Part shown: positions 22,113 to 43,237 of the stretch, one piece after another | Numbering within the stretch: the first letter of the stretch is position 1 | How the letters are laid out: the number at the start of each line of letters is the position of its first letter | DNA from: Dokdonella sp. | GTDB lineage: Bacteria > Pseudomonadota > Gammaproteobacteria > Xanthomonadales > Rhodanobacteraceae | Reading direction: 5' to 3' | Assembly: GCA_019634795.1 (NCBI GenBank) | Contig: JAHCAR010000007.1 | Span: 1-64,000 of the forward strand | DNA: 64,000 bases | Made by a program: the position numbers and the translations under genes | Notes under the pieces: model-generated | What the model was told of the DNA's origin: nothing | Seen by the model: the letters and a program-made list of their open reading frames with translations, nothing else | The model's database searches: none

Positions 22113-22127
22113 ATGCGAGAAGGCCGG

Positions 22128-23339
22128 TCAGGGATCAAATCCGTTGGCAAAAATGATGCGGTCGACTACCCCGGCGAACAGATCCACCGTGCTCGCCGGA
22201 GAACTGGCGACAATGAAGTCGAGGCGACCATCGCCGGAGACGTCCCCGAGACCGACGGCATCGAAGCCGAACTGACCGCCGGGCCGGGTGCCGTTCATGC
22301 GGGTCAGGAAACTCAGATCCGCACCACTGAAGATGCCGACCCGGCCACCCTGGCTCACACCGCCGCCTCCGTAGGTGTATGCACCGACGATGATGTCGGC
22401 ATGGCCGTCGCCATCTACGTCACCGGCACCTCGACCGGGGCCGAGGCCCTCACCGGGCGTGCCGGCAATCCGGTGGATGCGAAGACCCGTTGCACCCGAG
22501 AATACGTAGGCCGCACCGTTGGCACCGGTTTCGTTGTAGGCGCCGACATAGATGTCGGTCGTTCCGTCGGCATCGACGTCGCCGGCGTCGGCCACGAAGA
22601 AGTCGCCGAAACGGCCACCGGCACTCTGGGCGCTGAGGGTGTGCAGCAGTGCACCGCTGGCGCCCGAATAGGCATAGACCTTGCCAACGCCATCGTTCGG
22701 CGCACCGACGACATAGTCGCGCATCTGATCGCCATCGATGTCGGCGATGCTGCTCACGCCCGAACCAAACTGGCTGCCGGTCGCGCCTGTCTGCGTGCGC
22801 AGCACGCTGCCGTCGCTGCCCGATTGTACGTACACCGCGCCGTTGCCGCCCGGCGCACCAACCAGCAACTCGTCAGTCAGGTCGCCGTTGAGATCGGGCA
22901 AGGCTGACACCGCGTAGCCATACTGGCTTGCGCCGCTTGGCACTGGAAGAACCAGCACTACCTGCCCGTCGAGGCCCGACAGTACACGCGCGGCACCACC
23001 GCCAGCCGCGTTCGGCGCACCGGCGATGACCTCGCTGCGAAAGTCGCCATCAAGATCGCCGGCGTCGCCGATCGACCAGCCGAAGCCGGCGATGCCCGGC
23101 ATGGCCGTCCACAACGGCGTCGCCGACTGCGTCGAGTAGCCGACCACCCGGTTGCCGCCTGGCGCACCAGCGACGAAATCACGGCGACCGTCGCCGTCCA
23201 GATCCACCACCTCGGCGACCGCCCATCCCATGTTGCAGCAGTTGGTGTAACTACGCACCAGGTTCGCCATCGGCTGGGCCTGTGCCGTTCCCGCGAACAA
23301 CAACGTGCACCAGGGCACAAACCCGCGACGACTACTCAT
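22128..23339 (-). CDS. secreted FG-GAP beta-propeller protein, short copy
   Basis: A 403-residue exported protein with a signal peptide (about residues 1-22, ending AQA-Q) followed by seven FG-GAP/integrin-alpha-type repeats with Ca-binding DxDxDG loops (DLDGDGRRD, DLDGD, DIDGDQ, DVDADG, DVDGDG, DVSGDG). It ends in the short tail RIIFANGFDP. The repeat region is a close copy of the gene immediately upstream, with many silent base differences, so it is a tandem duplication. Its ATG overlaps the stop of that gene by 8 nt. Function unknown; FG-GAP propellers usually mediate binding at the cell surface. Confidence 0.88.
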   Translation of the reverse strand: MSSRRGFVPWCTLLFAGTAQAQPMANLVRSYTNCCNMGWAVAEVVDLDGDGRRDFVAGAPGGNRVVGYSTQSATPLWTAMPGIAGFGWSIGDAGDLDGDFRSEVIAGAPNAAGGGAARVLSGLDGQVVLVLPVPSGASQYGYAVSALPDLNGDLTDELLVGAPGGNGAVYVQSGSDGSVLRTQTGATGSQFGSGVSSIADIDGDQMRDYVVGAPNDGVGKVYAYSGASGALLHTLSAQSAGGRFGDFFVADAGDVDADGTTDIYVGAYNETGANGAAYVFSGATGLRIHRIAGTPGEGLGPGRGAGDVDGDGHADIIVGAYTYGGGGVSQGGRVGIFSGADLSFLTRMNGTRPGGQFGFDAVGLGDVSGDGRLDFIVASSPASTVDLFAGVVDRIIFANGFDP

Positions 23340-25554
23340 GTGCCTGTTGCTGCGCTGGGGCCACGGGGGCGCGGACGATCTGGAACTCGAACACGGCGGT
23401 CGACTCCTTGCGGCGCAGATTGATCCGATCGGTGTCCCCGAACGCCAGCGTGTCGGGGATGCCAAGGTCATACAGCACAATCGTTCCATTGGCTTCCCGG
23501 GTCACCGATCCCAGGCGGCCCGTCTCGTCGGGATTGATCCACAGCAGCATCGTCTCGGTTCCGGCCACACACGATGTTCCGCAGCGTGAGAGAAGGACTT
23601 CCGTGAGCAACTGGCAACCGCCGACGTCGGCATCGACGCATTGCAGCCGATACAGCCGCGCGCCAGCCTGAGGCGTCGCGATGCCGAACGGCGCCGCGCT
23701 TCCCGAGGCGTCGACTACACGGAAACCGCTCGGCGCGGCCAGACTCGAGAGCGCCACGCGCACGACCGCTTCATCATGTTGGCTCGCCGAGTCCCTGCTG
23801 CCGATCAATACCCAGTCGCCCGAGTAGTCGACCGGCGCAACCAGCGGCAACCCGCGCAGCGTGCCGACGATGTGATGACTGCGCTGGTCGGGCTGGCCCG
23901 GGTTGTCGATGAAGGTGCCGTCACGCGGCGAGCGGAACTCGATGCGGATGTTGCGCCCGGTGAATACCGGTGTTCCGTTGGTTCCGACGACCGGGTTCGA
24001 ATAGTCCGAACGCCCAGTGAAGGTGAACGTCGGTGAATCGAGCGTGGCGAAGATGCCCGTCTGCACGAGTTGCTCCTGGCTCGAGTAGATCAGATCGCCC
24101 TGGAAGAACACGACCCGGGCCGCACCATTTTCCTGGAACTGCCACTCGCCGTTGGCAACAGGTCGATCAACATCGAAGTTGAGGTCGAACGAGATACCAC
24201 CGAAGTTGCTGGTCGGTGAAATCCAGCCGCCCACCGCGGGCTTGATCGGGAACTTGAATTGAAGACCACCAGTCGTAGCTTGCGCATTCACCACACCGGC
24301 AAAAAGATCCACCGTGCTGGCCGGGGAACTGGCTACAATGAAGTCGAGACGCCCGTCGCCGGTGACGTCACCGAGACCGACGGCATCGAATCCGAACTGG
24401 CCGCCGGGCCGGGTGCCGTTCATGCGGGTCAGGAAGCTGAGGTCGGCGCCGCTGAAGATGCCGATCCGCCCGCCCTGGCTCACACCGCCACCGCCATAGG
24501 TGTAGGCACCGACGATGATGTCGGCATGCCCATCACCATCGACATCACCGGCACTTCGGCCCGGACCGAGGCCCTCTCCGGTCGTTCCGGCGATTCTATG
24601 GATGCGCAGACCCGTTGCGCCCGAGAATACGTAGGCAGCGCCGTTGGCGCCGGTTTCATTGTACGCGCCGACATAGATGTCGGTCGTTCCGTCGGCATCA
24701 ACGTCACCGGCATCGGCCACGAAGAAGTCGCCGAAGCGGCTACCGGCGCTCTGCGCGCTGAGCGTGTGCAGTAGCGCCCCGCTCGCCCCCGAATAGACGT
24801 AGGCTCGACCGGGACCATCGTTCGGCGCGCCAACCACGTAGTCGCGTATCTCATCACCATCGATGTCGGCAATGCTGCTCACACCCGAACCAAACTGGCT
24901 ACCAGCCGTACCTGTCTGAGTGCGCAGCACGCTGCCGTCGCTGCCCGATTGCACGTACACCGCGCCATTGCCGCCCGGCGCCCCGACCAGCAGTTCGCCG
25001 ATCAGGTCGCCATTGAGATCGGGCAACGATGACACCGCATAGCCGTACTGGCTGGCACCAGACGGACGCGGCAAGACCAGGCTCACCTGGCCGTCGAGGC
25101 CGGACAGCACGCGCGCGGCGCCGCCGCTGGCAGCGTTGGGAGCGCCCGCGATGATCTCGCTGCGCAGGTCGCCATCACGGTCGCCGGCATCACCGATCGA
25201 CCAGCCGAAGCTGCCGATGCCTGGCGTGGCCGTCCACAACGGCGTCGCTGACTGCGTCGAGTAGGCCACAACCTGACCACCATTCGGGGCGCCGGCGACA
25301 AAATCACGGCGACCGTCCCCATCCAGGTCGGCCACGTCGGCGACACCCCAGCCCATGTTGCAACAGCCCGTGTAGCTGCGCACCAGATCGGCGGCAGGTT
25401 GCGCATGGGCCACGGCCGACAAGGCGGCAACTGCTGGCAGCAAGAAGCGCGATGTCGCAAACCATGCCGTTCCTTTTCCGCTCTCAGCTCGAACAGCAGG
25501 GGCCAAGCGACTGCCGAACCTGGCCGACAAGAACGACTCAGTTGACTGCTTCAT
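23332..25554 (-). CDS. secreted FG-GAP beta-propeller protein, long copy with extra C-terminal domain
   Basis: A 740-residue paralogue of the downstream gene. Residues 1-50 hold an unusually long signal region (hydrophobic core SRFLLPAVAALSAVAHA-Q), about 52-430 the FG-GAP propeller, and 431-740 a beta-rich domain not found in the short copy and not recognised. The two proteins are nearly identical up to STVDLFAGVV, after which the short copy ends with the GFD tail while this one continues. The ATG at 25554 has GGAG about 10 nt upstream and overlaps the preceding cytochrome c gene by 17 nt. Six cysteines in the extra domain (ECV..GCQ..RCGTSC region) may form disulphides. Confidence 0.87.
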   Translation of the reverse strand: MKQSTESFLSARFGSRLAPAVRAESGKGTAWFATSRFLLPAVAALSAVAHAQPAADLVRSYTGCCNMGWGVADVADLDGDGRRDFVAGAPNGGQVVAYSTQSATPLWTATPGIGSFGWSIGDAGDRDGDLRSEIIAGAPNAASGGAARVLSGLDGQVSLVLPRPSGASQYGYAVSSLPDLNGDLIGELLVGAPGGNGAVYVQSGSDGSVLRTQTGTAGSQFGSGVSSIADIDGDEIRDYVVGAPNDGPGRAYVYSGASGALLHTLSAQSAGSRFGDFFVADAGDVDADGTTDIYVGAYNETGANGAAYVFSGATGLRIHRIAGTTGEGLGPGRSAGDVDGDGHADIIVGAYTYGGGGVSQGGRIGIFSGADLSFLTRMNGTRPGGQFGFDAVGLGDVTGDGRLDFIVASSPASTVDLFAGVVNAQATTGGLQFKFPIKPAVGGWISPTSNFGGISFDLNFDVDRPVANGEWQFQENGAARVVFFQGDLIYSSQEQLVQTGIFATLDSPTFTFTGRSDYSNPVVGTNGTPVFTGRNIRIEFRSPRDGTFIDNPGQPDQRSHHIVGTLRGLPLVAPVDYSGDWVLIGSRDSASQHDEAVVRVALSSLAAPSGFRVVDASGSAAPFGIATPQAGARLYRLQCVDADVGGCQLLTEVLLSRCGTSCVAGTETMLLWINPDETGRLGSVTREANGTIVLYDLGIPDTLAFGDTDRINLRRKESTAVFEFQIVRAPVAPAQQQAHE

Positions 25555-25930
25555 CGTTGTTTTCTCCGGAAGTTATAGTTTGCCCTGGTGCGAATCGCTG
25601 GCGCAGGTAGCGGACCCAGATATTGATCCGAGCGTCGTCGTATCGATCTCCCCAAGCCGGCATCGCCGCGCTCAGTCCCGCCGCCGCGCCCCCGCGTTTG
25701 ATTACGTCGAAGGCGCCCTGATCGACGCCTTCGCCGATCCAGAATCGTGGATCGCTGAAATTCGCCGGCGGCGGACCCATGGCCAACGCGGCCTGGCCGT
25801 CGCCGGCTCCGGATGCGCCATGGCAGTTGGCACAGAAGGCTTGATAATCTGCCTCGATGTTCCAGTCGCCAGCAGACATGGTGCTTGCTCCGAGTACGCT
25901 CGAAAGAAGGATCCGTTTGGGCAGAATCAT
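25538..25930 (-). CDS. small exported c-type cytochrome
   Basis: A 130-residue mono-heme cytochrome c with a signal-like N-terminus (MILPKRILLSSVLGASTMSA) and one heme site, CANCH, followed by GASGAGDGQAALAMGPPPANFSDP, typical of cytochrome class I/CcoP-like proteins. The axial Met is likely in AAMPAWGD. It is the first gene of a three-gene overlap chain: its 3' end overlaps the long FG-GAP gene by 17 nt. Why a cytochrome is coupled to FG-GAP proteins is unclear; an electron-transfer step in a secreted enzyme complex is one possibility. Confidence 0.85.
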   Translation of the reverse strand: MILPKRILLSSVLGASTMSAGDWNIEADYQAFCANCHGASGAGDGQAALAMGPPPANFSDPRFWIGEGVDQGAFDVIKRGGAAAGLSAAMPAWGDRYDDARINIWVRYLRQRFAPGQTITSGENNDEAVN

Positions 25931-26137
25931 GTTGCGGGGGAACTCCTCCGACAGGACGGACAGGCGTGGTTCCGTCGAGATGCGAAAGTTCGACGCGATC
26001 GATCGGGAGTCTGGGTGAGGGCCTCGGCCGTTGCCTGAAGTCGCACTGAAGTGGCGCTGCAAGATCGATGAAAATCCGCCACTTGCCACAATTCGGCGTT
26101 GCCCGGAGCGAGCAAGGCATGGTCATCCTCATCGCGT

Positions 26138-27607
26138 TCAGTTCGCGTCGAAGCCATCCTGGAAGATCGCATCGAAATTGGCCGAGGCCACGTAGAAGTC
26201 GCCGAGCGGGCGATTCCGATAGTCGGGCCACGCCATGTAGGCGTGGCCCCCCGCGGCCGCCATGCCAACGTAATCGCCCTGGAACGTGCTGGTCGTGGTA
26301 CTGGCCGCTCCGCTCAAGGTGACCGGCGCCTGCCAGACGCTGCCATCGGCGGAGCGTCGCAGGACCACATCGGCCAGCATGCGGTTTGGATCGCGGGCAG
26401 TATCCTTAAAGGCGACCAGCAGTTCGCCGGTCTGAGCATCGACGTCGGCCCAGGAAAAAAACTGATCGCCGGCGACCGCATCGAGCCCGGGAACGCGTTC
26501 GGGTGTCGACCAGGTCAGGCCGAGGTCATCGCTGTGCGAGATGTAGACGCCGCTGCGGCAGGTGTTGGCGGCGCTGCAGACCTTTGAACAGTTGAATGGC
26601 ACACCGGGAAGATAGTCGTTCCAGGACACCCACATCGACCGACCGAGCGGATGCGCGGCAAGCCGCAATCCGAGCGAGGTCTGGACATGCGCGCCCGGCG
26701 CATTGCAGGCGCCAGCCGGCTGGATGTTGAATGCCGAGCGATTGAGCGCGATCTGCGCCGGGGCCTGCCAACTGTCACCTTGATCGGTCGAGCGCTGCAC
26801 CTGGATGTTGAGCCGGGTCACACCGTCGGCAAATCCCTGGTTGAAACTGAGCAGAACCGTGCCGTCCTCGGCCGTGGCCAGGTCGAGGCCGGCCACGCCC
26901 AGCGACGGAATGGTGATCGGGCCGGTCCAGCTCAGGCCCTGGTTGCTCGAACGGGCGAAGAACATCGGCCCCGGCGGCAGCTTCCAGGCGACATAGACAT
27001 TGCCGAAGTAGGGACTTCCGGGGTGGTCATCGACGGCGATGGCCACTTTGTCGTCACGTGCGTCACGCGGCACAGCATCGTTGGTGAGCCGAACCATCGG
27101 CGTCCAGGTAAGTCCGCCATCGAGCGATCGATGCACGTCGATTCCCAGGTTGGTGTTGGTGAACGAATCGACAGGAATATGGGCGAGATAGGCGATGCCC
27201 TGTGCGTCGATGGCCAGCATCGGGTCGGCTTCGAAGACGGCGCCGGCGGCCTGGGGGATGTTGCCCAGGGTCCAATTCAGGCCGCCATCGAACGTGGCGG
27301 CGGTATCGATGCCCTTGTTGCTCGCGTCGCCCATGATCGCGGCGACCGCGTGCAAAGGATTGTTGCCCTGCACAGCCATGCTCGTCTCGCGTGCGTTGTG
27401 CGGGCCGCTGGTCAGCATTTGCTCGGTGACCAATGCGCCCGAGGCGCTGCCCTGCGGGTTTACTCGGGCTGACGCGGCATGATTGCCGACACCCGATGCC
27501 AGGTGCTCCGGCCATCCGGACTGCCGGTTCTCGAGACGGGTACATGCACTCCCGGCAAGGCATGCGCACAATGAAAGAATCAACGCACTTGTTCGCTTCA
27601 CCAACAT
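26138..27607 (-). CDS. secreted BNR (Asp-box) beta-propeller protein
   Basis: A 489-residue exported protein. The N-terminus (MLVKRTSALILSLCACLAGSACTR) is a signal peptide that may be a lipoprotein signal, although the lipobox is not canonical. Asp-box repeats appear as SLDGGLTW, SSNQGLSW, STDQGDSW and SDDLGLTW, typical of sialidase-like six-bladed propellers; the catalytic sialidase arginine triad cannot be assigned. The last residues are AIFQDGFDAN, the same type of GFD tail seen in the short FG-GAP protein. GGGGAGGAAA precedes the ATG. It is downstream of a CadC-like regulator and upstream of the cytochrome/FG-GAP genes, all on the same strand. Confidence 0.83.
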   Translation of the reverse strand: MLVKRTSALILSLCACLAGSACTRLENRQSGWPEHLASGVGNHAASARVNPQGSASGALVTEQMLTSGPHNARETSMAVQGNNPLHAVAAIMGDASNKGIDTAATFDGGLNWTLGNIPQAAGAVFEADPMLAIDAQGIAYLAHIPVDSFTNTNLGIDVHRSLDGGLTWTPMVRLTNDAVPRDARDDKVAIAVDDHPGSPYFGNVYVAWKLPPGPMFFARSSNQGLSWTGPITIPSLGVAGLDLATAEDGTVLLSFNQGFADGVTRLNIQVQRSTDQGDSWQAPAQIALNRSAFNIQPAGACNAPGAHVQTSLGLRLAAHPLGRSMWVSWNDYLPGVPFNCSKVCSAANTCRSGVYISHSDDLGLTWSTPERVPGLDAVAGDQFFSWADVDAQTGELLVAFKDTARDPNRMLADVVLRRSADGSVWQAPVTLSGAASTTTSTFQGDYVGMAAAGGHAYMAWPDYRNRPLGDFYVASANFDAIFQDGFDAN

Positions 27608-27899
27608 GTGTTTCCTCCCCGGCCCGGGCTGTGCAACGACTGCCACATGTCCGCCATGGCAAATTCGCTTGCAAGTGAACTGGATTTGCCAAATTTCCGA
27701 TGGCTGGCGGGCCGGGCCTGCGCGGCGCGCGGCTCGAGTGGACACGGATGTTGCCCTGTCCGTGATGCCATCGTCCTGCCGGGCAGATTCCAGCATCCAG
27801 GTGCGCGGGTGTCTCGAAGGCTCGCTGAGAATTCGCTGAAGTTTCGCTGTATGCGGCCGAAAATCGACCTCGCTCGGCAAACGGGCGTGGACCAGGTTG

Positions 27900-30149
27900 C
27901 TATTCGTCCAGCGCGATCACGGCGATGTCGGTTTCATCGGCCAGTTCGGTGCGAACAAGTACGCGACGGGCATCGCCGCTGATGTCGAGCAGGGGATAGT
28001 TGCGATCCTCGCCCAGGTCCAGAGCGGTTTCGGCACGCATCGGACCCGGCATCGCGGCGCGATATACCTGAAAGTGACCGATCTCCGGATTCATCCACGC
28101 ATACCAGATGGCGTCTCCGGACAGGCGCCATCGACTCGCCTGCCAGGTCGCCAGATGCGCGAGTTCCACGCGAACGCGCTGATAGGGCGGTTCGGACACG
28201 AGAATTTCGGCGCGCGCCGGATCGGTCAGGTAGATGTCATTGCCGCGCACTTCGAGGTGGGGATCGATACCGCCCACATCGATGGTTTGCAAGGATTCTT
28301 CAGGCTGGCCCAGGTCGATCACAAAGGCTCTCCAGCCGGCTTCGGTCATGCCGCTGTAGACGATGTCGTTTGTGTTCGGCAGCCGCCTCGGCGAACGCAG
28401 TTCGGTATGTGCCAGTGGCCGGCATGCCGGTGTCGTCGCCGACTGGGCCAGATCGAGCACGCAGACCTGATCGTCGGCACGTTCAGCACTGACTACCCAG
28501 AGCAGTTCATTGCCGTCCTGGCTGAACGACAGATCATGCAGACGCTCGCCTCCGAACCTGGTCAGTTGCACGGGGGCATCTTCCTGCGCCGGCGTCATCC
28601 AGATCTGGGTACTGCCGGATCGATCCGAGATCAACGCAATGCGGCTGGCATCCGGGGCATAGACAGCTTCGAGGTCGGTTCCCGTGGACGGCGCGATCCA
28701 GCGCGCGCCGATGGATGGATCGACGAGCGAATATTCGCGAATGCGAAGGCGAACACGCAGGCGCTCGAATACGGCCAGATTGGCTGCTTCGGCAATATCG
28801 ACATTGTCGGCGTCATGGATACCGAGAGGCTCCTGCTCGAGCGTTCGCGTATCGAGCCGAAACAGCTCGGTCTGCTCGTGCAGTTTCCGCGAATACAGCA
28901 GATGGCGGCTATCGGGATACCAGTCGAAGCGTCCGAAGTACCCTTGGCTGCGGGTCAGACGCTGCACGGCGCCGCCCTCGCTGGCGACCATGAACAGCGC
29001 ACCACGTGGATGCACGCCGCGACGAAATGCGATCCAGCGACCGTCCGGCGACTGCCGCGGGTCGCGATCGAAGTCTTCGGCATTACGATCGTAGTCGAGC
29101 CAGTGGTCCCTGCCTTCGAGATCGCGCAGCAGGAGTTGGGTCACCTTTCCGTCAGGCAATTGGGGCCGAGAAAGCCAGAGGCCACGGTCGCCGACGGCCC
29201 AGTCGAACAGATCGTAAACCTCGCTGTTGCAGCCGCCGAGGAAACGACGAGCGGTCACTTCGATCCCGTTCATCGCAACCAGGCTGATGCCGCAGCTTCC
29301 TTCAGTGCTGCTCTGGAACGCCAGCATCGAACCGTCGCGAGACCATTGCGGATAGAAGTTCTGCTGCCTTTCCGGAACCGAAACGATGGCGTGCCCGTGG
29401 CCGTCCATCGTAGCGGCGACGATGCGCGTCACTCCGCTGTCACCCACCCACTCCGTATAGGCGTAGCGTCGGCCGTCGCTGGTCACTGTCGGCATACGCT
29501 CGGCCTGCAGTGACGATGTCAGCAGCTTCGGCGCCCGCCCCGCCACGCGCTCGGGACGAACGGGAGAGTGCGGTCGCATGATCACGGACATACCTGCCAG
29601 CAGAATGAACAGCAGGCCTAGTACGCCGAGCATCCAGCGCGCAGTGCGCACCGAACGAGGCTGCGAACGCGTGTCATCGAGTTCACTCTCGAGCTCGGCC
29701 TGCAGCGCGAACGCCGCCTTCTGTCGATCTTCACCGTCGACATCCGGCGCTACCGGCTCCCCCGGATCCTCGATGCGTCGCGCCAGTGCCACCAGCCGGT
29801 AGCCGATGCGCGGAACCGTCTGGATCCGGACCGGATTAGGCATCTGGTCACCAAGTGCACGGCGCAGCTCGCGGATCGCATGACTGAGCACGTCCTGGGT
29901 CGGGTAGTCACCCGGCCAGACCATGTCGAGCAGCTGGTCGCGGCTCAATGTTTCGCCGGGGTTTCTGGCCAGCGCCAGAAGCACGCCCATGGCCTTCGGC
30001 GCGAGGCGCGATTTCCTTTCCCCGAGCTGGATCAGCAATGTCCCGAAACTGACCCTTGCCTCACCGATTTCCCAGTTTCCGGCGGCGGCAAGCTGTTCCG
30101 CGCCGATGATCTCAGCGCTCGACAATTCGGTTTCGTCACGTCCGCTCAT
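27900..30149 (-). CDS. CadC-like transmembrane transcriptional regulator with TolB-type propeller
   Basis: A 749-residue one-component regulator. Residues 28-122 form an OmpR-type winged helix (LLIQLGERKSRLAPKAMGVLLALARNPGETLSRDQLL ... VDVLSHAIRELRRALGD ... PRIGYRLV), followed by an acidic linker, one membrane span (about 172-190) and a periplasmic part with repeated WSRDG/SPDGRW/SQDGNEL units typical of TolB/PD40 beta-propellers. The design, cytosolic DNA-binding and periplasmic sensing, is that of CadC/ToxR. It lies upstream of the secreted BNR/cytochrome/FG-GAP genes on the same strand and is the natural candidate to control them. The target sites are not evident. Confidence 0.88.
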   Translation of the reverse strand: MSGRDETELSSAEIIGAEQLAAAGNWEIGEARVSFGTLLIQLGERKSRLAPKAMGVLLALARNPGETLSRDQLLDMVWPGDYPTQDVLSHAIRELRRALGDQMPNPVRIQTVPRIGYRLVALARRIEDPGEPVAPDVDGEDRQKAAFALQAELESELDDTRSQPRSVRTARWMLGVLGLLFILLAGMSVIMRPHSPVRPERVAGRAPKLLTSSLQAERMPTVTSDGRRYAYTEWVGDSGVTRIVAATMDGHGHAIVSVPERQQNFYPQWSRDGSMLAFQSSTEGSCGISLVAMNGIEVTARRFLGGCNSEVYDLFDWAVGDRGLWLSRPQLPDGKVTQLLLRDLEGRDHWLDYDRNAEDFDRDPRQSPDGRWIAFRRGVHPRGALFMVASEGGAVQRLTRSQGYFGRFDWYPDSRHLLYSRKLHEQTELFRLDTRTLEQEPLGIHDADNVDIAEAANLAVFERLRVRLRIREYSLVDPSIGARWIAPSTGTDLEAVYAPDASRIALISDRSGSTQIWMTPAQEDAPVQLTRFGGERLHDLSFSQDGNELLWVVSAERADDQVCVLDLAQSATTPACRPLAHTELRSPRRLPNTNDIVYSGMTEAGWRAFVIDLGQPEESLQTIDVGGIDPHLEVRGNDIYLTDPARAEILVSEPPYQRVRVELAHLATWQASRWRLSGDAIWYAWMNPEIGHFQVYRAAMPGPMRAETALDLGEDRNYPLLDISGDARRVLVRTELADETDIAVIALDE

Positions 30150-30759
30150 CGGGTCTCAGGGCCAGCCCTTGTGCATGGGCGGAGCAAATGCCGCTGGGAA
30201 GCCTTCGCCTCCGCCCAAGCTCGGACTGTACCTCATCGACATAACGACGGCGATGCAGGACACTCCATCCTTGTCATGTGCCTGGAAGTGCTCGTTGCAG
30301 GAAGGGCTGCCCCGCAAGCCTCATCGAAGACGGATGAACTGGACTATCGGCATTGCTCCGTCGCCCGGGCATGCGTGTCCAAGGGCTTGGCGAGTTCGGC
30401 TGACAACGAGTCGGGCCGGGGCGGGAATCCCGTGTACTCGGGAATTCGATTCAACAGGCCACTCATTTCAAGACGATGCAATTCCGGTCGGCTTGGCCGT
30501 GCCCTTTGACACTTGTGCTTCATTTCCCGACGCTGAGCACAAGGGGACCGACCACCGCGCTCACCCAGTCCGCGAAATCACTACTATACAAAGCAGCTAA
30601 TCTGCCGGAAAATGCAAGCTTTCCAGGGGTTGCCGGTCCGGCGTTTGCCGGATCGGAAATTCGTCGGTTTCTCCCGACTCGGCCCGACCGAGCCCGCGCG
30701 GACGCAGTCTGGCGCGCATTTCGCACGCGTACCTCATCCAAACAACCGGACCTCACTCC
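30150..30759. other. long intergenic region without a recognised gene
   Basis: About 600 bases between the divergent CadC-like regulator and the ACP gene. No reading frame has a recognisable product or good codon use. It is less GC-rich near 30430-30600 and should hold the promoters of both neighbouring transcription units. A consensus -35 hexamer TTGACA at 30506-30511 lacks a matching -10 at 17 bases; a TATACA at 30585-30590 lacks a good -35. No promoter is called. Confidence 0.5.
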
Positions 30760-31017
30760 ATGGCCATTCCCGATTCGGAAAACATTCTCGCCACGCTGCA
30801 GGGCTTCCTCGCCGAGCGCTTCGACATTCCGGCCGATCAGGCGACTCCCGATGCCCGGCTCCGCGACATCGGGCTCGATTCGATGATGGTGCTCGACGTG
30901 ATGATGGAGGTCGAGGACCAGCTCGGGGTCAAGCTCGACGACGTCTCGCTGCCGCGCGACGCGACGCTCGGCGACGTCGTTGCGCTGGTCAGGCGCAACC
31001 TCGAAGTCCGCGCCTGA
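30760..31017 (+). CDS. acyl carrier protein paired with ketosynthase and RpfF
   Basis: An 85-residue acyl carrier protein. The phosphopantetheine attachment site is Ser41 in DIGLDSMMVLD, followed by the acidic helix EVEDQLGVKLDD. It is not in the housekeeping fabD-fabG-acpP setting but directly upstream (2-nt gap) of a ketosynthase and then an rpfF-like DSF synthase. RpfF-type enzymes take acyl-ACP substrates, so this ACP may carry the precursor of the signal. No strong ribosome binding site is seen upstream. Confidence 0.9.
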   Translation: MAIPDSENILATLQGFLAERFDIPADQATPDARLRDIGLDSMMVLDVMMEVEDQLGVKLDDVSLPRDATLGDVVALVRRNLEVRA

Positions 31018-31019
31018 AC

Positions 31020-32303
31020 ATGGCCAACGACGCGCATGATGTAGTCATCACCGGCATCGGCATCCTCTCCCCGGTCGGCCTGAACATGGCCGAGTTCGGC
31101 CAGAGCCTGCGCTCGAACCGCTCCGGCATTCGGCTCTGGGAGTCGCCGCAACTTTCGCGGCGCATTCCCGCCGGCGTCATCGAGCAGGATTTCAGCAGCC
31201 AGTTCAGCAAGCTCGAACTGCCCTACATGGACCGCTGCAGCCAGATCGCCATGCTCGCCGCCAGGCAGGCAATGGCGGATGCCGGCATCGATCAGTTCGC
31301 CGAACACGCCCAGCGCGCAGGCCTCTACTACGGATCGGTCGGCGGCGGAGTCAAGACCGAGCACGACTGGGTGCGCCAGTTCCATGTCGACCATGTCGAG
31401 GGGGCCAAGCCCTACACGATCATGGCCAGCATGCTGAATGCCGCGCCCGCGCTCATTTCGATCAAGCACAAGATCCTCGGGCCGGTGATCACCAACAGCA
31501 GCGCCTGTTCCTCGTCGGGAGCGGCCATCGGCGAAGCCTGCCGTGCCATCCGCGACGGCTACCTCGATCTGGCCCTGGCCGGTGGCGCCGAAGCGGCCCT
31601 GACACCGACCTTCGTCGCCCTCTGGAGCGGACTGCGCGCACTCGCCGAAGCGGACCCCAACGACGTATCGCGCAGCTGCCGGCCGTTCTCGGTCGACCGC
31701 ACCGGACTCGTGCTCAGCGAGGGCGCCGTGTTCCTGATGCTGGAATCGCGAGCCCATGCGGAAAAGCGCGGCGCTGCCGCGTATTGTCGTTTGTCGGGAT
31801 ACGGCATCGCTTCGGATGGGTATCATATAGGCACTCCCAATTCCCAGGGCCAGGCTGCTGCGTTGCGCGCGGTGCTGGCCGACGCAGGGCTGCGTCCAGA
31901 CCAGATCAGCTACTACAACGCGCACGCCACTGCGACCCGCGGCGGCGATCCCGTTGAGAGCGCTGCCGTCCGGGAGGTGTTTGCCGACGCGACCGATCAA
32001 TTGCCCGTCAGTTCGACCAAGGGAATCCACGGCCACCTGCTCGGTGGCGCCAGCGCGATCGAACTCGCCGCCTGCGTGCTGGCGATCGAAGGCTCGTTCC
32101 TGCCCGCGACGGCCCATCTCGACGCGGTCGATCCGGAGTGCCCGCTTCGCCACGTCGCCAATCGCCCCTGGCTCGACACCCCGGTCGAACATGCCGTTTC
32201 CCTGTCCGCCGGGTTCGGCGGGACCAATGTCGCCCTGGCAGTTTCGAAGGAGCACGATTTGCGCACCAAAACTGTCGCCGGGGAAGAGTCAACTATCACC
32301 TGA
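31020..32303 (+). CDS. beta-ketoacyl-ACP synthase II-type enzyme
   Basis: A 427-residue condensing enzyme of the FabF/KAS II family, elongating an acyl chain with malonyl-ACP. The catalytic triad is complete: Cys163 in SSACSSSG, His302 in NAHATATRGGDP and His339 in GIHGHLLGGASA, with Lys334. The glycine-rich C-terminus GFGGTNVAL is present. It begins 2 nt after the ACP stop codon and ends 44 nt before rpfF. A ketosynthase dedicated to the DSF synthase would be unusual: Xanthomonas takes the acyl-ACP from the general pool. Alternatively it belongs to another small fatty-acid or aryl-polyene-like path. Confidence 0.92.
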   Translation: MANDAHDVVITGIGILSPVGLNMAEFGQSLRSNRSGIRLWESPQLSRRIPAGVIEQDFSSQFSKLELPYMDRCSQIAMLAARQAMADAGIDQFAEHAQRAGLYYGSVGGGVKTEHDWVRQFHVDHVEGAKPYTIMASMLNAAPALISIKHKILGPVITNSSACSSSGAAIGEACRAIRDGYLDLALAGGAEAALTPTFVALWSGLRALAEADPNDVSRSCRPFSVDRTGLVLSEGAVFLMLESRAHAEKRGAAAYCRLSGYGIASDGYHIGTPNSQGQAAALRAVLADAGLRPDQISYYNAHATATRGGDPVESAAVREVFADATDQLPVSSTKGIHGHLLGGASAIELAACVLAIEGSFLPATAHLDAVDPECPLRHVANRPWLDTPVEHAVSLSAGFGGTNVALAVSKEHDLRTKTVAGEESTIT

Positions 32304-32328
32304 GCGCTTCATGTCGAGGCGCTCTTTT
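32302..32328 (+). terminator. hairpin with T-run between ketosynthase and rpfF
   Basis: Six-bp arms GAGCGC (32302-32307) and GCGCTC (32319-32324) are followed directly by TTTT. The stem starts inside the ketosynthase stop codon. It resembles a weak intrinsic terminator and could partly uncouple rpfF transcription from the ACP-ketosynthase genes. The stem is short and the loop 11 nt long, so efficiency is uncertain. Confidence 0.45.
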
Positions 32329-32347
32329 CATCCAGGAGAGTGCCGCC

Positions 32348-33223
32348 ATGAACGCTGTACACGTTTTTCCCTCGCCACCGGCTGCCCGCCATGTCCAGGC
32401 CCATTTCGACGTCGGGCCACAGAACACCCTGTGGGTCACGCTACCCGGGTCGATCGACGGCAATCCGCCCTACTTCTCGCCGCCGCTGATCGAAGACCTC
32501 ATGGGCATGCTGCAACTGATGAAGCAGCGTGGCGCCGCCTGGCCGTCCCAGGGCCTGCTGCGACCAATCCATTACACGGTTATGAATTCGGCGCATCCCG
32601 AATATTTCAATCTCGGTGGCGATCTTGCCCACTTCCACGACTGCATCCAGCGCCGCGACCGCGATGCCCTGCATCACTATTCATTGACTTGTGCCGACAT
32701 GCTCTTCGAGTGGTCGAGCGCGCTCGGCAAGCAGGCGACCAGCATCGCCCTCGTCCAGGGCCGCGCCCTCGGTGGCGGTTTCGAAACCGCGCTGGCGGCC
32801 GACTTCATCGTCGCCGAGGAACACAGCGAGTTCGGCTTTCCGGAAATACTGTTCGGCCTGTTTCCGTGCACCGGTGGCATGAGCCTGCTGGCCCAAAGGA
32901 TCGGCGCACGGGCCGCCGAACGCATGCTCGGCGACGGACGCGTCTACAGCGCGGCCGCGCTCAAGGAGATGGGCGTGATCGACGTGGTCTGCCCGACCGG
33001 CGAGGGCGAGCGGACCGTGGAGAAATTCATTGCCGAACACGCCAAACATCGGCAGGCCAGGCTGATGCTGCAACGCAGCCGGCACCGGATCGCACCACTG
33101 GACCTCGACGAGCTGCACACCGTGGTCGACGAATGGACCGACACCGCCATGCAACTGGGCCCGCAAGAGCTGCGGGTCATGGAAATGCTAGTCAAGTTGC
33201 AACGAGGCCGACGCGTCGGCTGA
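32348..33223 (+). CDS. rpfF: DSF synthase, RpfF-like crotonase
   Basis: A 291-residue member of the crotonase superfamily matching RpfF, which dehydrates 3-hydroxyacyl-ACP and releases the cis-2-unsaturated fatty acid signal (DSF). Both glutamates known to be essential in RpfF are present with the same spacing: Glu146 in ALGGGFE and Glu166 in EFGFPEILFGLFP (Xanthomonas E141 and E161). The N-terminal extension before the crotonase core is also RpfF-like. AGGAGAG lies just upstream of the ATG. An RpfC-like kinase gene is convergent and overlaps by 36 bp, as in the rpf cluster arrangement. General enoyl-CoA hydratases lack this context, so the call is fairly sure. Confidence 0.85.
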   Translation: MNAVHVFPSPPAARHVQAHFDVGPQNTLWVTLPGSIDGNPPYFSPPLIEDLMGMLQLMKQRGAAWPSQGLLRPIHYTVMNSAHPEYFNLGGDLAHFHDCIQRRDRDALHHYSLTCADMLFEWSSALGKQATSIALVQGRALGGGFETALAADFIVAEEHSEFGFPEILFGLFPCTGGMSLLAQRIGARAAERMLGDGRVYSAAALKEMGVIDVVCPTGEGERTVEKFIAEHAKHRQARLMLQRSRHRIAPLDLDELHTVVDEWTDTAMQLGPQELRVMEMLVKLQRGRRVG

Positions 33224-35353
33224 AAGGGCCACCGCCCCCTCCGGTAGCTCCTTTTGCAAAGCGATGACGGTGACGCGTGTCGCCTCGGCCAGATCAGCCG
33301 ACCAGCGTAGATGCGCAGTTTCGAGTTCTTCCCGCGTTGCGGCCATCAGGTTTCCGGCCAGCGCGACCAGACGAACCGCACCCACATCGCCACTTACCCC
33401 CTTGAGAGCATGCGCCGCGTCTCGCACCGCGGCATAGTGGCGCTCGGCCAGGGCAGCGCTGATCTGCCCTACATTGCGCCGGATATCGTTGCAGGCTTCG
33501 AGCAGCAGGTTGGGAAAGAACTCGGGCCGGCTGCTGACCTGCTTCAGTTCCTCGATGACGCTCGCGTCGATCGGACTGGCGACGATGGCAGTCAAGACCG
33601 GTCGCGTCTGGCGCGGACCCGCGTCCACCGGCGGTGTCGGATCGGATACATCGAGTACCGCGCCCGGATCGGCCACCTTTCCGAGATCGCGGATCGCCAT
33701 GCGCAACCTGGCCAGGGTGATCGGCTTGTACATCACGCCCACTGCGCCGCACTCGCGCAGGCGGATCGCGGTCTGCTGGGACGTATCGGCAGTGAGGAAC
33801 ATGGCCGGAGCCGCATCGATACGGCCGAAACGGTAGGTCTGCAACAGGCGTACGCCGTCCATGTCGCCGAGATTGTAGTCGAGCAGCAGCAGATCGAAGT
33901 CCTGCTCGGCAAGCGCGTCGAGCGCGGCCATGCCGCTGGCGCAGGTGGTTACCTCATGACCGTCGCCGACAAGCAATTCGTGCAGCAGCATGAGATTGGT
34001 TTCATTGTCTTCGGCGACCAGGATGCGCAGTCGGTCCGCATCACTCGACGCTGGCGTCGATGGCGTGGCATCGAACGATTCCTCGACCGCTGCGCTGCGC
34101 GCCAGGTTGACCTCGAACCAGAACCTGCTGCCCTTGCCGGGCTTGCTTTCGAACAGCAGCTCGCTGCCCATCAGTTCGACGATCTGCCGGGAAAAGGCGA
34201 GGCCCAATCCGGTTCCCCCGAAGCGGCGACCCGGGCCCTGATCGACTTGCGCGAACGGCTGGAAAATCGACCCATGGAACGATTCGGGAATGCCGATGCC
34301 GGTATCTTCGACGCTGAAGCGCAATCGGTATTCGAGCGGCGTTTCCTCGAGCAGGTCGACGGCGACGTTGACCTGGCCGCGTTCGGTGAACTTGACCGCA
34401 TTGCCAGCCAGGTTGAGCAGGACCCGCCCGAGGTGATGCGCGTCGGCTTCTACCCGGTCGGTGATGGCCGGGTCGAGCGCGACACAGAAGGACGTGCCCT
34501 TCTTGGCGGCGCTCGGTGCAAGCGCGTCGTGCACCATCTGCATTTTTTCGGCCAGATCGAACGGGGCCGACTCGAGTTGCGCGGCGCGCGACCCGAACTT
34601 GGCCACGTCGAGCAGCTCGTTGATTTCACGCAGCAGCTCGTTCGACAAGGTGAGGATGGTGTCGGTCCGGCGCGTCACCGTTTCATAGCCGACCTCGGCG
34701 GCCAGCAGTTCGGTCGCGGAGATGATGCCGGTCAATGGGGTGCGCAGTTCATGGCTGACCTTGGCCAGCAGCGCCGATTTGGCCTGACTCTCGCGCTCGG
34801 CGTGTTCGCGCGACTCTCGCAGGGTCTTGATCAGGACCCCGGCGTACATCGGCACAACCACCAGCGGAAGCATCAGGGCGACCCACACGGTCGGATTGGC
34901 CTGCCAGTACGGCACACTGAGAAAGACCAGCAGGAAACTCGCAATCGCGGTCAGCTGGCACAGGTGCATGAGCGGCCGGCCCGTGCGGAAGCCGAAGCCG
35001 AGAATCGTGAACAGGTAGAAGCCGACCATGATGCTGCCGTACTCGCCCATCACGACCAGCCAGGCCGACAGCGCCAGCGGATCGAGTACCGCCGAGGCCA
35101 CAAGCAGGTAGTGGGCAGGCACCGACTTGCGATAGTGGACCAGCACGTGCATGGCGACCACATAGGCGCAGTAGCCCAGGGTCAGTGCGAACAACCGGCC
35201 TGCGACACCCTCGGTGGAGGCCAGATAGAGGTAGGCCTCGACGAGCACGACCGGCACGGCGATAACGACGCGCACCCGGGCCTGCGCGGCAAGGATCGCC
35301 CTCAGGCCGGTCTCGGTCTTGTCGAGAGCGCCTTCAACGATATCTGGGATCAC
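33188..35353 (-). CDS. rpfC: RpfC-like hybrid histidine kinase (DSF receptor)
   Basis: A 721-residue hybrid sensor kinase: five or six membrane spans (about residues 28-175), HisKA with His201 in SHELRTPLTG, HATPase with N-box NAVKFT and G-boxes DTGIGIP and GGTGLGLAFS, receiver domain (442-555) with phosphoacceptor Asp492 and Lys543, and an HPt domain with His648 in HALKGVSGD. This domain order and the neighbouring rpfF point to RpfC, which senses DSF and restrains RpfF. Its partner RpfG (HD-GYP phosphodiesterase) is not in this window. The start codon is GTG at 35353. The last 36 bases overlap the 3' end of rpfF on the other strand. Confidence 0.85.
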   Translation of the reverse strand: MIPDIVEGALDKTETGLRAILAAQARVRVVIAVPVVLVEAYLYLASTEGVAGRLFALTLGYCAYVVAMHVLVHYRKSVPAHYLLVASAVLDPLALSAWLVVMGEYGSIMVGFYLFTILGFGFRTGRPLMHLCQLTAIASFLLVFLSVPYWQANPTVWVALMLPLVVVPMYAGVLIKTLRESREHAERESQAKSALLAKVSHELRTPLTGIISATELLAAEVGYETVTRRTDTILTLSNELLREINELLDVAKFGSRAAQLESAPFDLAEKMQMVHDALAPSAAKKGTSFCVALDPAITDRVEADAHHLGRVLLNLAGNAVKFTERGQVNVAVDLLEETPLEYRLRFSVEDTGIGIPESFHGSIFQPFAQVDQGPGRRFGGTGLGLAFSRQIVELMGSELLFESKPGKGSRFWFEVNLARSAAVEESFDATPSTPASSDADRLRILVAEDNETNLMLLHELLVGDGHEVTTCASGMAALDALAEQDFDLLLLDYNLGDMDGVRLLQTYRFGRIDAAPAMFLTADTSQQTAIRLRECGAVGVMYKPITLARLRMAIRDLGKVADPGAVLDVSDPTPPVDAGPRQTRPVLTAIVASPIDASVIEELKQVSSRPEFFPNLLLEACNDIRRNVGQISAALAERHYAAVRDAAHALKGVSGDVGAVRLVALAGNLMAATREELETAHLRWSADLAEATRVTVIALQKELPEGAVALSADASASLQLD

Positions 35354-37561: not shown

Positions 37562-37783
37562 ATGAAACTCAAGATCACAACCATCGGCAACTCGGCCGGA
37601 GTGATCCTGCCGCGCGAACTGCTGGCACGCCTGCGCCTTGAAAAAGGCGACGAACTGTTCGCGCTAGAGACGCCGGACGGCATCCGCCTGACCACCTACG
37701 ACCCCGAGCTGGCCCGGCAGATGGAAGTGGCCGAGGACGTCATGCGCAAGGATAGAAACGTCCTGCGCAAACTGGCGCAGTAG
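37562..37783 (+). CDS. AbrB/MazE-type antitoxin
   Basis: A 73-residue swapped-hairpin AbrB DNA-binding protein (MKLKITTIGNSAGVILPRELLARLRLEKGDELF is the canonical core) with a C-terminal tail (LARQMEVAEDVMRKDRNVLRKLAQ) that should wrap the toxin. It lies 9 nt upstream of a Doc-family toxin. AbrB-type antitoxins paired with Doc are a known variant of the usual Phd-Doc module. AGGA precedes the ATG. Confidence 0.9.
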   Translation: MKLKITTIGNSAGVILPRELLARLRLEKGDELFALETPDGIRLTTYDPELARQMEVAEDVMRKDRNVLRKLAQ

Positions 37784-37792
37784 GCGGCAGCG

Positions 37793-38224
37793 ATGATCAT
37801 CTGGATCGAGAGACCACTCGCCTTGGCCATTCATGAGCGCCAGTTGGCCGAGCATGGTGGCGGTATCGGCGTGCGCGACGAGAGCCTGCTGATATCGGCG
37901 CTCGCGCGTCCGCAGCAACTGCATGCGTATGGCGATCCGCCGCCCGATCTCGCCGACCTCGCTGCCAGCCTTGCGTTCGGTCTGGCCCGCAACCATCCCT
38001 TTGTCGACGGCAACAAGCGCACCGCCCACGTCTGTTACCGCGTCTTCCTCGCGCTCAACAGCGTCGAAATCGTCGCAAGCGATGAAGAAAAGTATGTCGC
38101 GATGATCTCCCTGGCCGAGGGAAGCCAGTCCGAAGCCGAGTTCGCTGACTGGCTGCGCCAGCGCACCAAACTCGATGTCGAAAAGCAGGTGAACGAACCG
38201 CGCACAGGCTACGCGCGGAGATAG
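37793..38224 (+). CDS. doc: Doc-family toxin (Fic fold)
   Basis: A 143-residue death-on-curing toxin with the active-site motif HPFVDGNKR (68-76), matching the Doc signature HxFx(N/D)xNKR. Doc proteins phosphorylate elongation factor Tu and stop translation. The motif differs from AMP-transferring Fic proteins (HPFxxGNGR), so kinase-type activity on EF-Tu is expected. It is the second gene of an operon with the AbrB-type antitoxin. The tail is Arg-rich. The first 35-bp repeat array begins about 40 bases after its stop codon. Confidence 0.92.
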   Translation: MIIWIERPLALAIHERQLAEHGGGIGVRDESLLISALARPQQLHAYGDPPPDLADLAASLAFGLARNHPFVDGNKRTAHVCYRVFLALNSVEIVASDEEKYVAMISLAEGSQSEAEFADWLRQRTKLDVEKQVNEPRTGYARR

Positions 38225-38264: not shown

Positions 38265-38410
38265 TCCATTGGTCCTGAGCGTAACGCAGCGAAAAAAAGT
38301 CCGTTCTTCTTGAGCGCAGCGCAGCGAAAAAAAGTTCGTTCGCCCTGAGCGTAGCGCTCCGAAAAAACGTCCGTTCGTCCTGAGCGTAGCGCAGCGAAGT
38401 CGAAGGATGA
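38265..38410. repeat. tandem repeat array 1, period 35 bp, four units
   Basis: Four 26-bp cores start at 38265, 38300, 38335 and 38370, an exact 35-bp period. The consensus begins TCCGTTCGTCCTGAGCG and continues with TAGCGCAGC; the units are separated by 9-nt A-rich spacers (GAAAAAAAG-like). The last unit runs on into CGAAGTCGAAGGA, the form in which this repeat is often found singly in bacterial genomes. A second array with the same period and opposite orientation lies at 42128-42293. Confidence 0.88.
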
Positions 38411-41959: not shown

Positions 41960-42445
41960 GCCGGCGTGCTCCTGGTTTTCTGCCTGACGGTCGCGCGCTG
42001 CGCGCGGGTCAGTTCGGTCTGTGCCTTCGGTGCCTTGGGGCCCGGTGTGGCGGAATTTTCTTGTTCGATCCTTCGCTGGCGCCGATGGGTTGTCCTTCGA
42101 CTTTGGTGCTCCATGTCCTTCGACTTCGCTGCGCTACGCTCAGGACGAACGGACATTTTTTTGCTGCGCTACGCTCAGGACGAACGGAATTTTATTCACT
42201 GCGCTAAGCTCAGGACGAACGGAGATTTGTTAGCTTCGCTGCGCTCAGGTCGAACGGACCTCGGTTCGCTGCGTTGCGCTCCGGACGATCGGTTTCCATT
42301 CAATTCATGGGCCATAACCCTACGGTCCAAGGTCGGCCCGGACCCGGGACGATTCAAGCGCCGGCGAGGCTGTGCCCTGCCTACGCCCTCCTGCTCGAGT
42401 CATCGGGGAAACCCTGGCCGCGGAGGCCGCGGCCAGGGCCACCGA
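41960..42445. other. intergenic region holding repeat array 2
   Basis: Between the nrdJb start and the end of the histone-like gene (both minus strand). Apart from the 35-bp array at 42128-42293, a single degenerate unit fragment (CCTTCGACTT) occurs at about 42094-42103. No gene is supported. The nrdJb promoter should be close to 41960-42060; none was clear. Confidence 0.55.
42128..42293. repeat. tandem repeat array 2, period 35 bp, five units
   Basis: Five 26-bp cores start at 42128, 42163, 42198, 42233 and 42268, again an exact 35-bp period. The consensus begins GCTGCGCTACGCTCAGGACG and ends AACGGA; it is the reverse complement of array 1. Spacers of 9 nt differ between units (for example CATTTTTTT, ATTTTATTC-like). 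The units become more degenerate towards the right. The preceding bases CCTTCGACTTC extend the first unit. Confidence 0.88.
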
Positions 42446-43135
42446 TCACTTGCGGCCTTTCTTGCCGGCCTTCTTTGCAGCCTTCTTCGCGGGTGCTTTC
42501 TTCGCTGCCTTCTTGGCGGCCTTTGCCGCTGCGGGCGCCTTCTTCACGGCCTTCTTGGCCGACTTCTTCGAAGCGGCGGCCTTCTTCACGGCTTTCTTGG
42601 CGGCCTTCCTGGCTGGCGACTTCTTCACGGCCTTCTTCGCGGCGGAAGCCTTTTTGGTGGCTTTCTTGACCGCTTTCTTCACGGCCTTCTTGGTTGCCGC
42701 CTTCTTGGCTACTGCTTTCTTCGCGACCTTCCTGGACGCCTTCTTCGCCGCGCCCTTCTTGGCGGCGGCCTTCTTCGCGACCTTCTTCTTGGCGGCCTTG
42801 GCCTTCGGCTTGGCCTTGGCTGCGCTCTTGGTCACCGACTTGGTGGCTTCCTCGGCGGCCTTGGTCACCGACTTGGCGGCCTTCTTGATCTTCTTGGCGG
42901 CGGCCTTTTCGACCTTCTTCATCTTGGCGACGACGGTCTTGACCTTGCGCGCGGCCTGCTTGCGCGCCTTCTGCACCTGGGCCACGGCCTTCTTGCCGGC
43001 GGCTGCAGCGGTTTCCTTGGCATCGGTGGCCATGGCACTGGCGGAGCTGGCGACCGCACCGGCGGCGTCGGAAATTGCGCCACCCATTTCCTTCAGACTG
43101 TCTTTGACTTCTTCAACCGGACTTTCGGTACTCAT
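42446..43135 (-). CDS. histone H1-like Lys/Ala-rich DNA-binding protein
   Basis: A 229-residue basic protein. Residues 1-50 are an acidic to neutral helical head (MSTESPVEEVKDSLKEMGGAISDAAG...), and the remaining 180 residues are dominated by KKAAKKAVKKA-type repeats like histone H1, AlgP of Pseudomonas and Hc1 of chlamydiae. Such tails bind DNA without sequence preference and condense it. GGAGAGGGGA lies before the ATG at 43135. The repeated nature makes length variation by recombination likely. It lies between nrdJa and nrdJb on the same strand; a functional tie is not known. Confidence 0.85.
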   Translation of the reverse strand: MSTESPVEEVKDSLKEMGGAISDAAGAVASSASAMATDAKETAAAAGKKAVAQVQKARKQAARKVKTVVAKMKKVEKAAAKKIKKAAKSVTKAAEEATKSVTKSAAKAKPKAKAAKKKVAKKAAAKKGAAKKASRKVAKKAVAKKAATKKAVKKAVKKATKKASAAKKAVKKSPARKAAKKAVKKAAASKKSAKKAVKKAPAAAKAAKKAAKKAPAKKAAKKAGKKGRK

Positions 43136-43237
43136 GTTTCCCCTCTCCGCGCTCACCGCGCATGTTGATTGGCTGGGTTGGAAAACGCACTGCAGTTAAA
43201 CCGTCACGCGCGAGCGCATGCCGGGCCCACCTTCGAA

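Follow-up and report, generated by a model that had tools for sequence, protein, structure and literature searches.

The DSF quorum-sensing signals are thought to come from the housekeeping fatty-acid pool, a view that does not explain how a species fixes the chain length of its signal. The locus considered here lies in a window of 64,000 nt of Dokdonella sp. DNA (the whole stretch that was analysed), where genes for an acyl carrier protein (ACP) and a ketosynthase stand directly 5' of an rpfF-like gene with rpfC convergent to it. This raises the question of whether such a pair belongs to the DSF locus and, if it does, what it contributes.

Organisation of the locus

The arrangement reported in a preliminary description, with 2 nt between the ACP and ketosynthase genes, agrees with the coordinates read in the window, where a spacer of 44 nt then separates the ketosynthase gene from rpfF.

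30760 to 31017, + strand: ACP gene, 85 aa (direct reading and PP-binding match)
31020 to 32303, + strand: FabF-like ketosynthase gene of a cassette-specific group, 427 aa
32335 to 32338, + strand: Shine-Dalgarno sequence of rpfF, GGAG (direct reading)
32348 to 33223, + strand: RpfF-type DSF synthase gene of the cassette clade, 291 aa
33188 to 33223, no strand assigned: rpfF and rpfC overlapping by 36 nt at their 3' ends (direct reading)
33188 to 35353, - strand: RpfC-type hybrid sensor kinase gene, GTG start, convergent with rpfF

Together the genes for ACP, ketosynthase, RpfF and RpfC form one four-gene DSF-type cassette, the coupling of which is conserved. The explanation we favour, with a probability of about 0.72, is that this is a compact quorum-sensing cassette of DSF type in which the private pair builds the acyl chain for RpfF, assisted by the housekeeping FabD and FabG. 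A CadC-like regulator (27900-30149) was considered as a further member and rejected, there being no tblastn match to it in loci L031-L057 of the relatives described below. Other partners may have been missed, since the clustering of ORFs from L031-L055 gave the most widespread clusters with many wrong-frame echoes among them, and 11 were identified by eye.

The cassette proteins

The private ACP carries Ser41 within a DSM motif and matches the general Pfam PP-binding domain above its cut-off (45.6 bits). It stays under the cut-off of the AcpP equivalog TIGR00517 (29.8 bits against 70.45), none of the 12 listed NCBIfam ACP models reaches its cut-off with this protein, and it is only 22% identical to the AcpP of its own genome, where a housekeeping acpP-fabF is present separately on another contig.

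The ketosynthase matches the N- and C-terminal Pfam ketoacyl-synt domains with 144 and 104.8 bits and the FabF equivalog TIGR03150 with 351 bits, under the cut-off of 493.75; in a quickly built, long-branched tree the 31 cassette ketosynthases all fall on one side of a branch with an SH-aLRT support of 100. Because it misses that cut-off and groups separately in the tree we call it FabF-like and not FabF. Residues C163, H302, K334 and H337 are invariant in all 25 cassette ketosynthases that were aligned.

The synthase is matched by Pfam ECH_1 (92.1 bits) and by NCBIfam NF006452 (284.6 bits, above the cut-off of 177). Its score of 205.7 bits against the strict RpfF equivalog NF053515 is far under the cut-off of 550, which counts against the favoured explanation, and for this reason it is labelled "RpfF-type" and not RpfF in NCBI's strict sense. 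In its predicted structure the crotonase fold is closest to the known DSF synthases, the 12 best PDB chains all being RpfF or DfsA before a gap in the scores, and its best four sequence matches among PDB chains are 7zq7, 3m6m, 6dgn and 5fus. E146 and E166 are invariant in 27/27 aligned cassette RpfFs and align to two glutamates, 20 residues apart, in the X. campestris structure 3m6m, which we take to be the catalytic pair. The statement that the catalytic residues of ACP, ketosynthase and RpfF are intact is borne out for all three. A tree of RpfF proteins splits 33 from 18 sequences with support of 100/100 in a bootstrap that had not fully converged, and places the cassette RpfFs on their own side.

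The kinase has HisKA, HATPase_c, Response_reg and Hpt domains, all above the Pfam cut-off and in the order HisKA-HATPase-REC-Hpt, with phospho-sites in the window protein at H201 (HisKA), D492 (REC) and H648 (Hpt). Across 27 loci the HisKA motif is found in 25, the exceptions being L038, where a contig end cuts the gene, and L052; the Hpt motif is likewise found in 25 (not in L040 and L053). A REC motif pattern of our own design matched 0 of the 27, so the REC assignment rests on Pfam and applies to the window kinase alone.

RpfG is encoded near the cassette in 16/25 loci (L034-L036, L041, L043-L052, L054 and L055), and there is a short match in L040. It was not found in the Dokdonella assembly, which is 85% complete, and this is counted against the favoured explanation; as a search for lysS in that assembly was also empty, the native rpf region is possibly just missing from it. 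An HD-GYP match in the same genome was rejected as RpfG since its architecture is different, the protein presumably being of the DUF3369 type.

Distribution and co-inheritance

Relatives were collected with RpfF as the query (80 loci of 108 relatives kept), of which L031-L057 were analysed, the counts being taken from L031-L055 with L058-L110 outside them. This survey of rpfF neighbourhoods finds the pair: L031-L055 have the ketosynthase and an RpfC-type kinase in 25/25 and the ACP in 23/25, both misses lying at contig ends and the ACP of L055 having been identified via an ORF cluster and not with the window ACP as query. Their record titles name Gamma- and Betaproteobacteria. Beyond them, L056 (39%) and L057 (35%) have neither a cassette ACP nor RpfC, and L056 has only a distant ketosynthase match of 30% some 7 kb away.

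The reverse search, with the ketosynthase as query in a 398-genome sample of the order, gave 9 matches at E<=1e-150, every one with a cassette RpfF and RpfC, and with the ACP all four genes are present in 9/9. Four of these genomes are from one genus and two from another. With the RpfF query, also over 398 genomes, the same 9 score 395-481 bits and the other matches listed 208-263. No ketosynthase at E<=1e-150 lay away from the cassette RpfF clade in this sample; the search used that threshold only and scored 4 candidates per genome, so weaker kin elsewhere would escape it. The suggestion that the pair might be a piece of another conserved pathway was rejected, as 9/9 genomes reached with the ketosynthase query at this threshold proved to carry the cassette rpfF. 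Chance adjacency was also rejected (hypergeometric 1.6e-18, with shared ancestry ignored). A phylum-wide sample yielded the cassette in 1/398 genomes, the Dokdonella genome itself, and this sample is thin, given that betaproteobacterial cassettes are known from the RpfF-query loci. The set of loci and the set of genomes overlap (L031-L035 are contigs of G002, G005, G007, G003 and G004), and the 31 genomes referred to here are the window, L031-L055, G024, G290, G306, G324 and G328.

Pairwise distances of the four cassette proteins correlate with r of 0.80-0.92 in a Mantel test on the 22 loci with a single copy of each gene, a value that includes shared species ancestry. In 8 loci (L040, L049, L051, L053 and L182-L185) rpfC and rpfF separate the ACP gene from its usual place, the ACP being found beyond rpfC, and L045 has the ketosynthase there as well as the ACP, so a single transcript is not universal. 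That the pair stays with rpfF and rpfC through several such rearrangements supports the view that it belongs to the DSF-type locus.

Comparison with known DSF systems

The canonical Xanthomonadales cluster, rpfA-rpfB-rpfF / rpfC-rpfG-lysS-prfB, shares the convergent RpfF and RpfC with the cassette, whereas the cassette adds ACP and ketosynthase and its RpfF and RpfC are of another clade (about 35-46% and 30-34% identity to the canonical proteins). The pair is found in 0/16 canonical rpf loci within about 9 kb, a weak match in G028 being left out of these loci. Absence of the pair beside rpfF in close relatives had been named as evidence against the link; it was seen only among relatives with an rpfF from the canonical clade. 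At 8 loci the canonical chromosomal site, between acnA-fadD and rpfG-lysS-prfB, is occupied by the cassette.

In Lysobacter capsici AZ78 the rpfF and rpfC genes (AZ78_3297/3298) are reported to be 34-35% and 29-31% identical to canonical ones and distant from rpfG-rpfB (PMC8416617), a layout resembling the cassette-only genomes G324 and G306 (RpfF 32-40%, RpfC 30-31% against canonical). From layout and identities, and not from its own sequence, AZ78 would group with the cassette genomes; the terms 'acyl carrier' and 'ketoacyl' are absent from the main text of that paper. The cassette may account for the report that another L. capsici genome lacks rpfF and rpfC (PMC4657364) and for the divergence of these genes described in AZ78 (PMC8416617). 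Xcc FabG2 is, like the cassette pair, described as a non-housekeeping fatty-acid enzyme that boosts the supply of DSF precursor, whereas it is a reductase, and its gene stands singly at another place in the genome rather than as an ACP-ketosynthase pair next to rpfF (PMC5941067).

The RpfF (DfsA)-RpfR systems of Burkholderia and Cronobacter (5fus, 6dgn) have the same synthase fold as the cassette RpfF, although their synthases score below Xcc RpfF in sequence match to it. Their sensor is RpfR, where the cassette has a hybrid kinase, and we know of no ACP-ketosynthase pair in these systems. The coupling had been thought undescribed for DSF systems, and in keeping with this our literature search found no paper describing an ACP-ketosynthase pair coupled to a DSF locus.

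Role of the pair

Under the favoured explanation the private ketosynthase would condense malonyl units onto an acyl chain, the private ACP being the carrier, with housekeeping FabD supplying the malonyl group and housekeeping FabG reducing the 3-keto product. The cassette RpfF would then dehydrate the 3-hydroxyacyl-ACP to its cis-2-enoyl form and free the fatty-acid signal, which the convergent RpfC would sense; RpfC may also hold RpfF via its receiver domain, as in Xanthomonas. Xcc RpfF acts on 3-hydroxyacyl-ACP, and cerulenin, a ketosynthase inhibitor, lowers DSF in Xcc (PMC4542539). The DSF-positive reporter result for AZ78 and the altered acyl pocket of the cassette ketosynthases, both taken up below, also count in favour of this explanation. 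We infer that the most likely role of the pair is to feed 3-hydroxyacyl-ACP to the cassette RpfF, which would provide a substrate channel and control over chain length.

The preliminary description held that the pair belongs to the DSF locus and would let the bacterium set the chain length or supply of its signal independently of growth metabolism. The former stands, the pair having survived rearrangements with a ketosynthase group of its own, but the claim of independence is too strong: a FabG query of the 31 cassette loci gave one match only (32%, in L182) and no reductase recurs, so the cassette must borrow at least the reductase step from housekeeping.

The lack of a recurrent reductase also favours an explanation that we consider improbable, in which ketosynthase and ACP act after RpfF, which would mainly dehydrate; the cis-2-enoyl (or a 3-keto) chain would then be lengthened by the ketosynthase with the private ACP as carrier, giving a released signal other than classical DSF. 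The acyl pocket fits this as well, since the position equivalent to FabF Ile108 is Ile in 7/7 FabFs and in 1/31 cassette ketosynthases, differing in the other 30 (Arg in 12, Asn in 7), and the substrate may thus be unusual. However, the RpfF glutamate pair is intact, and AZ78, which appears to have only the cassette type, is DSF-positive in an Xcc reporter (PMC8416617). A regulatory role, with a private acyl-ACP reporting fatty-acid supply to RpfF or RpfC, would account for the ACP being kept even where it adjoins rpfC rather than the ketosynthase; we hold it to be very improbable, as a pure sensor would have no need of the ketosynthase catalytic residues found in 25/25. Least credible is a spare fatty-acid elongation set that accompanies rpfF but has no part in making the signal, which suits the general families to which Pfam and NCBIfam assign both proteins but not the recovery of the same 9 genomes from either query, the retention of the pair through rearrangements, the separation of the ketosynthases from FabF, the housekeeping acpP-fabF already present, or the absence from the order sample of any member of the ketosynthase group without rpfF at E<=1e-150.

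A pair that builds the chain for RpfF, as we favour, makes the chain-length question testable by single-gene deletion, the cassette having its own carrier and condensing enzyme. More tentatively, and with somewhat less than even odds, the cassette could be a transferable second, insulated DSF channel, the chain made by its private ACP and its ketosynthase with an altered pocket being unused by canonical RpfF and the product read only by its own RpfC; it would then operate alongside a canonical system in G002, G290 and G328 and would have taken the place of one in G306 and G324. Genomes of Gamma- and Betaproteobacteria with a possible second DSF dialect could be recognised by the cassette.

Leader and spacer

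Two non-coding features may bear on transcription of the cassette.

30552 to 30759, + strand: leader 5' of the ACP gene, possible promoter region, conserved with Dokdonella immobilis from 30552 onward
32302 to 32324, + strand: hairpin of 9 pairs and then TTTT, between the ketosynthase gene and rpfF, the best fold of the longer spacer pairing the rpfF ribosome site instead; terminator- or attenuator-like (z -3.34)

No sigma-70 match was found, and searches gave no Rfam match and no tRNA. The spacer hairpin could even uncouple the ketosynthase from rpfF expression and is counted against the favoured explanation, although the number of terminator-like sites in the region (4) is no higher than in shuffles (mean 3.7). 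A different hairpin in related spacers shows covariation. The two covariation counts come from 5 and from 6 sequences, L044 having been shortened at the 5' end, and the second of them is weak.

A four-gene DSF-type cassette

The layout proposed in the preliminary description, an acyl carrier protein (ACP) and a ketosynthase (together the pair) ahead of a DSF synthase gene faced by a convergent kinase gene, was borne out when coordinates were read directly and gene types were confirmed by family searches:

30760 to 31017, + strand: ACP (sequence reading and family search)
31020 to 32303, + strand: ketosynthase, 2 nt after the ACP (family search)
32302 to 32324: terminator-like hairpin of 9 pairs, then TTTT, between ketosynthase and rpfF
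32348 to 33223, + strand: rpfF, 44 nt after the ketosynthase (family search)
33188 to 35353, - strand: RpfC-type hybrid kinase, converging on rpfF with a 36-nt overlap (family search)

In the NCBIfam search RpfF scores above the broad model NF006452 and under the cut-off of the strict RpfF equivalog, the ketosynthase falls under the FabF cut-off and the ACP under that of all 12 ACP models listed; these are therefore RpfF-type, FabF-like and ACP-like proteins, each of its own subfamily. Alignments show the active-site residues to be conserved, as had been claimed, and the AlphaFold2 model of RpfF (mean pLDDT 88.9) suggests a DSF synthase fold, its best 12 matches among PDB chains all being DSF synthases with a clear gap after them.

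Distribution of the cassette

Among 99 genomes comprising the host and its relatives, 23 have an RpfF match. In seven the protein is 58-100% identical to that of the window and is surrounded by ACP, ketosynthase and RpfC; 15 others, and a second copy in G002, have canonical RpfF (the classical Xanthomonadales type, about 35-46%) with RpfC and no pair within 1.5 kb, a weak match in G028 having been excluded from this set. The search of ~9 kb either side likewise found the pair at none of the 16 canonical loci. An RpfF profile run against a named genome collection recovered 25 loci (L031-L055) at 46-93% identity, from taxa including Rhodanobacteraceae, Pseudoxanthomonas koreensis and Betaproteobacteria, the closest named relative being Dokdonella immobilis (93%). 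All 25 have the ketosynthase and RpfC and 23 have the ACP; in the other two, L039 and L046, the ketosynthase itself is cut by the contig end. The samples overlap, as L031-L035 are contigs of G002, G005, G007, G003 and G004 respectively.

Across 398 genomes of the order the ketosynthase profile identified nine at E<=1e-150, all with cassette RpfF adjoining, RpfC beyond and an ACP present. An RpfF profile on 398 genomes drawn likewise found relatives in 134 (E<=1e-35), scoring 395-481 bits in the same nine and 208-263 among the other matches listed; three of the nine (G002, G290 and G328) additionally have a canonical copy. The coupling noticed in the window thus holds well beyond it, and ACP-ketosynthase-RpfF-RpfC is a conserved set.

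One branch of the RpfF tree, with support of 100/100, splits 33 cassette from 18 canonical sequences, and in a quick tree a branch with an SH-aLRT of 100 divides the 31 cassette ketosynthases from 7 housekeeping FabFs and 13 other sequences. Distances of the four proteins correlate (r 0.80-0.92 at 22 loci, with no species-tree control). The position equivalent to FabF Ile108, a known chain-length position, is Ile in 7/7 FabFs vs 1/31 cassette ketosynthases.

Gene orders and chromosomal sites

The cassette is one unit through REARRANGEMENTS, and several gene orders are seen. In the window ACP-ketosynthase-RpfF faces RpfC; in L040, L049, L051, L053 and L182-L185 ketosynthase-RpfF faces RpfC with the ACP on its far side, in L045 both ketosynthase and ACP lie beyond RpfC-RpfG, and in L047, L048 and L052 ACP-ketosynthase-RpfF is divergent from RpfC-RpfG. 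L050 and L054 have two different ketosynthase-RpfF pairs and a single kinase; the L050 RpfF at 5611-6360 has its N-terminal part missing.

At eight loci (L034, L035, L041, L043, L044, L049, L051 and L136) the classical cluster harbours the unit, flanked by acnA-fadD (known as rpfA and rpfB) and rpfG-lysS-prfB. In G328 the cassette has rpfB on one side and a full canonical rpfF-rpfC-rpfG on the other, so that two DSF-type systems stand in tandem between rpfB and lysS. G324 and G306 have rpfG opposite rpfB with no rpfF-rpfC in between, the cassette of G324 being ~3.25 Mb from that site. L. capsici AZ78 matches these two genomes in layout and identities to canonical proteins (rpfF 34-35%, rpfC 29-31%, far from rpfG-rpfB) and is positive in an Xcc DSF reporter (PMC8416617); we infer that all three are of the same kind. 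For a different L. capsici rpfF and rpfC are reported absent (PMC4657364).

Neither rpfG nor canonical rpfF was found in the host assembly (3.87 Mb, 85% complete), which is hardly informative because lysS, located in the native rpf region in relatives, was not found there either.

Proposed function

Housekeeping acpP-fabF of the host lies elsewhere, on contig C45, and the cassette pair is therefore extra; its ACP is 22% identical to host AcpP. In X. campestris RpfF converts 3-hydroxyacyl-ACP to cis-2-enoic acid and cerulenin, an inhibitor of FabF and FabB, lowers DSF about five-fold (PMC4542539), and FabH (PMC5011732) and a lone FabG2 (PMC5941067) influence DSF supply. The private ACP and ketosynthase would therefore most likely load RpfF. 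Full independence of signal supply from growth metabolism is not supported, as a FabG query matched at only 1 of the 31 cassette loci and the cassette therefore relies on housekeeping reduction. No description of an ACP-ketosynthase pair coupled to a DSF locus was found in a search of open-access literature.

The ketosynthase-rpfF spacer

The spacer hairpin may allow rpfF to be expressed differently from the pair. It is one of 4 terminator-like sites in the region, where shuffles average 3.7. For 32290-32355 only one shuffle in 200 folds as well (z -3.34), and the best structure of this stretch pairs the rpfF ribosome site instead of the terminator-like stem; the stem may take a terminator-like form or refold across that site. 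Support for paired changes is weak in the window's own spacer group (n=6 sequences). Spacers of L039, L041, L043, L044 and L136 form a different hairpin with 4 pairs changed on both sides (equalled by 1/500 shuffles), the short ones of L037, L038 and L042 have little or no structure, and those of L047 and L048 are below foldable length.

Other features of the window

Upstream of the cassette, ~8.4 kb (22112-30552) encoding an FG-GAP protein, a cytochrome c, a BNR-repeat protein and a CadC-like regulator are without DNA match in Dokdonella immobilis L031, and both flanks match again. A protein at 42446-43156, rich in lysine and alanine and histone H1-like by eye, has no Pfam match at E<=0.001. 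At 37562-38224 a MazE-type antitoxin gene precedes one of the Fic/Doc family, with a glutathione S-transferase gene upstream, and 35-nt tandem repeats of the CTGCGCTACGCTCAGGACGAACGG type form two arrays, 42125-42299 and 38269-38398, in opposite orientation ~3.8 kb apart.
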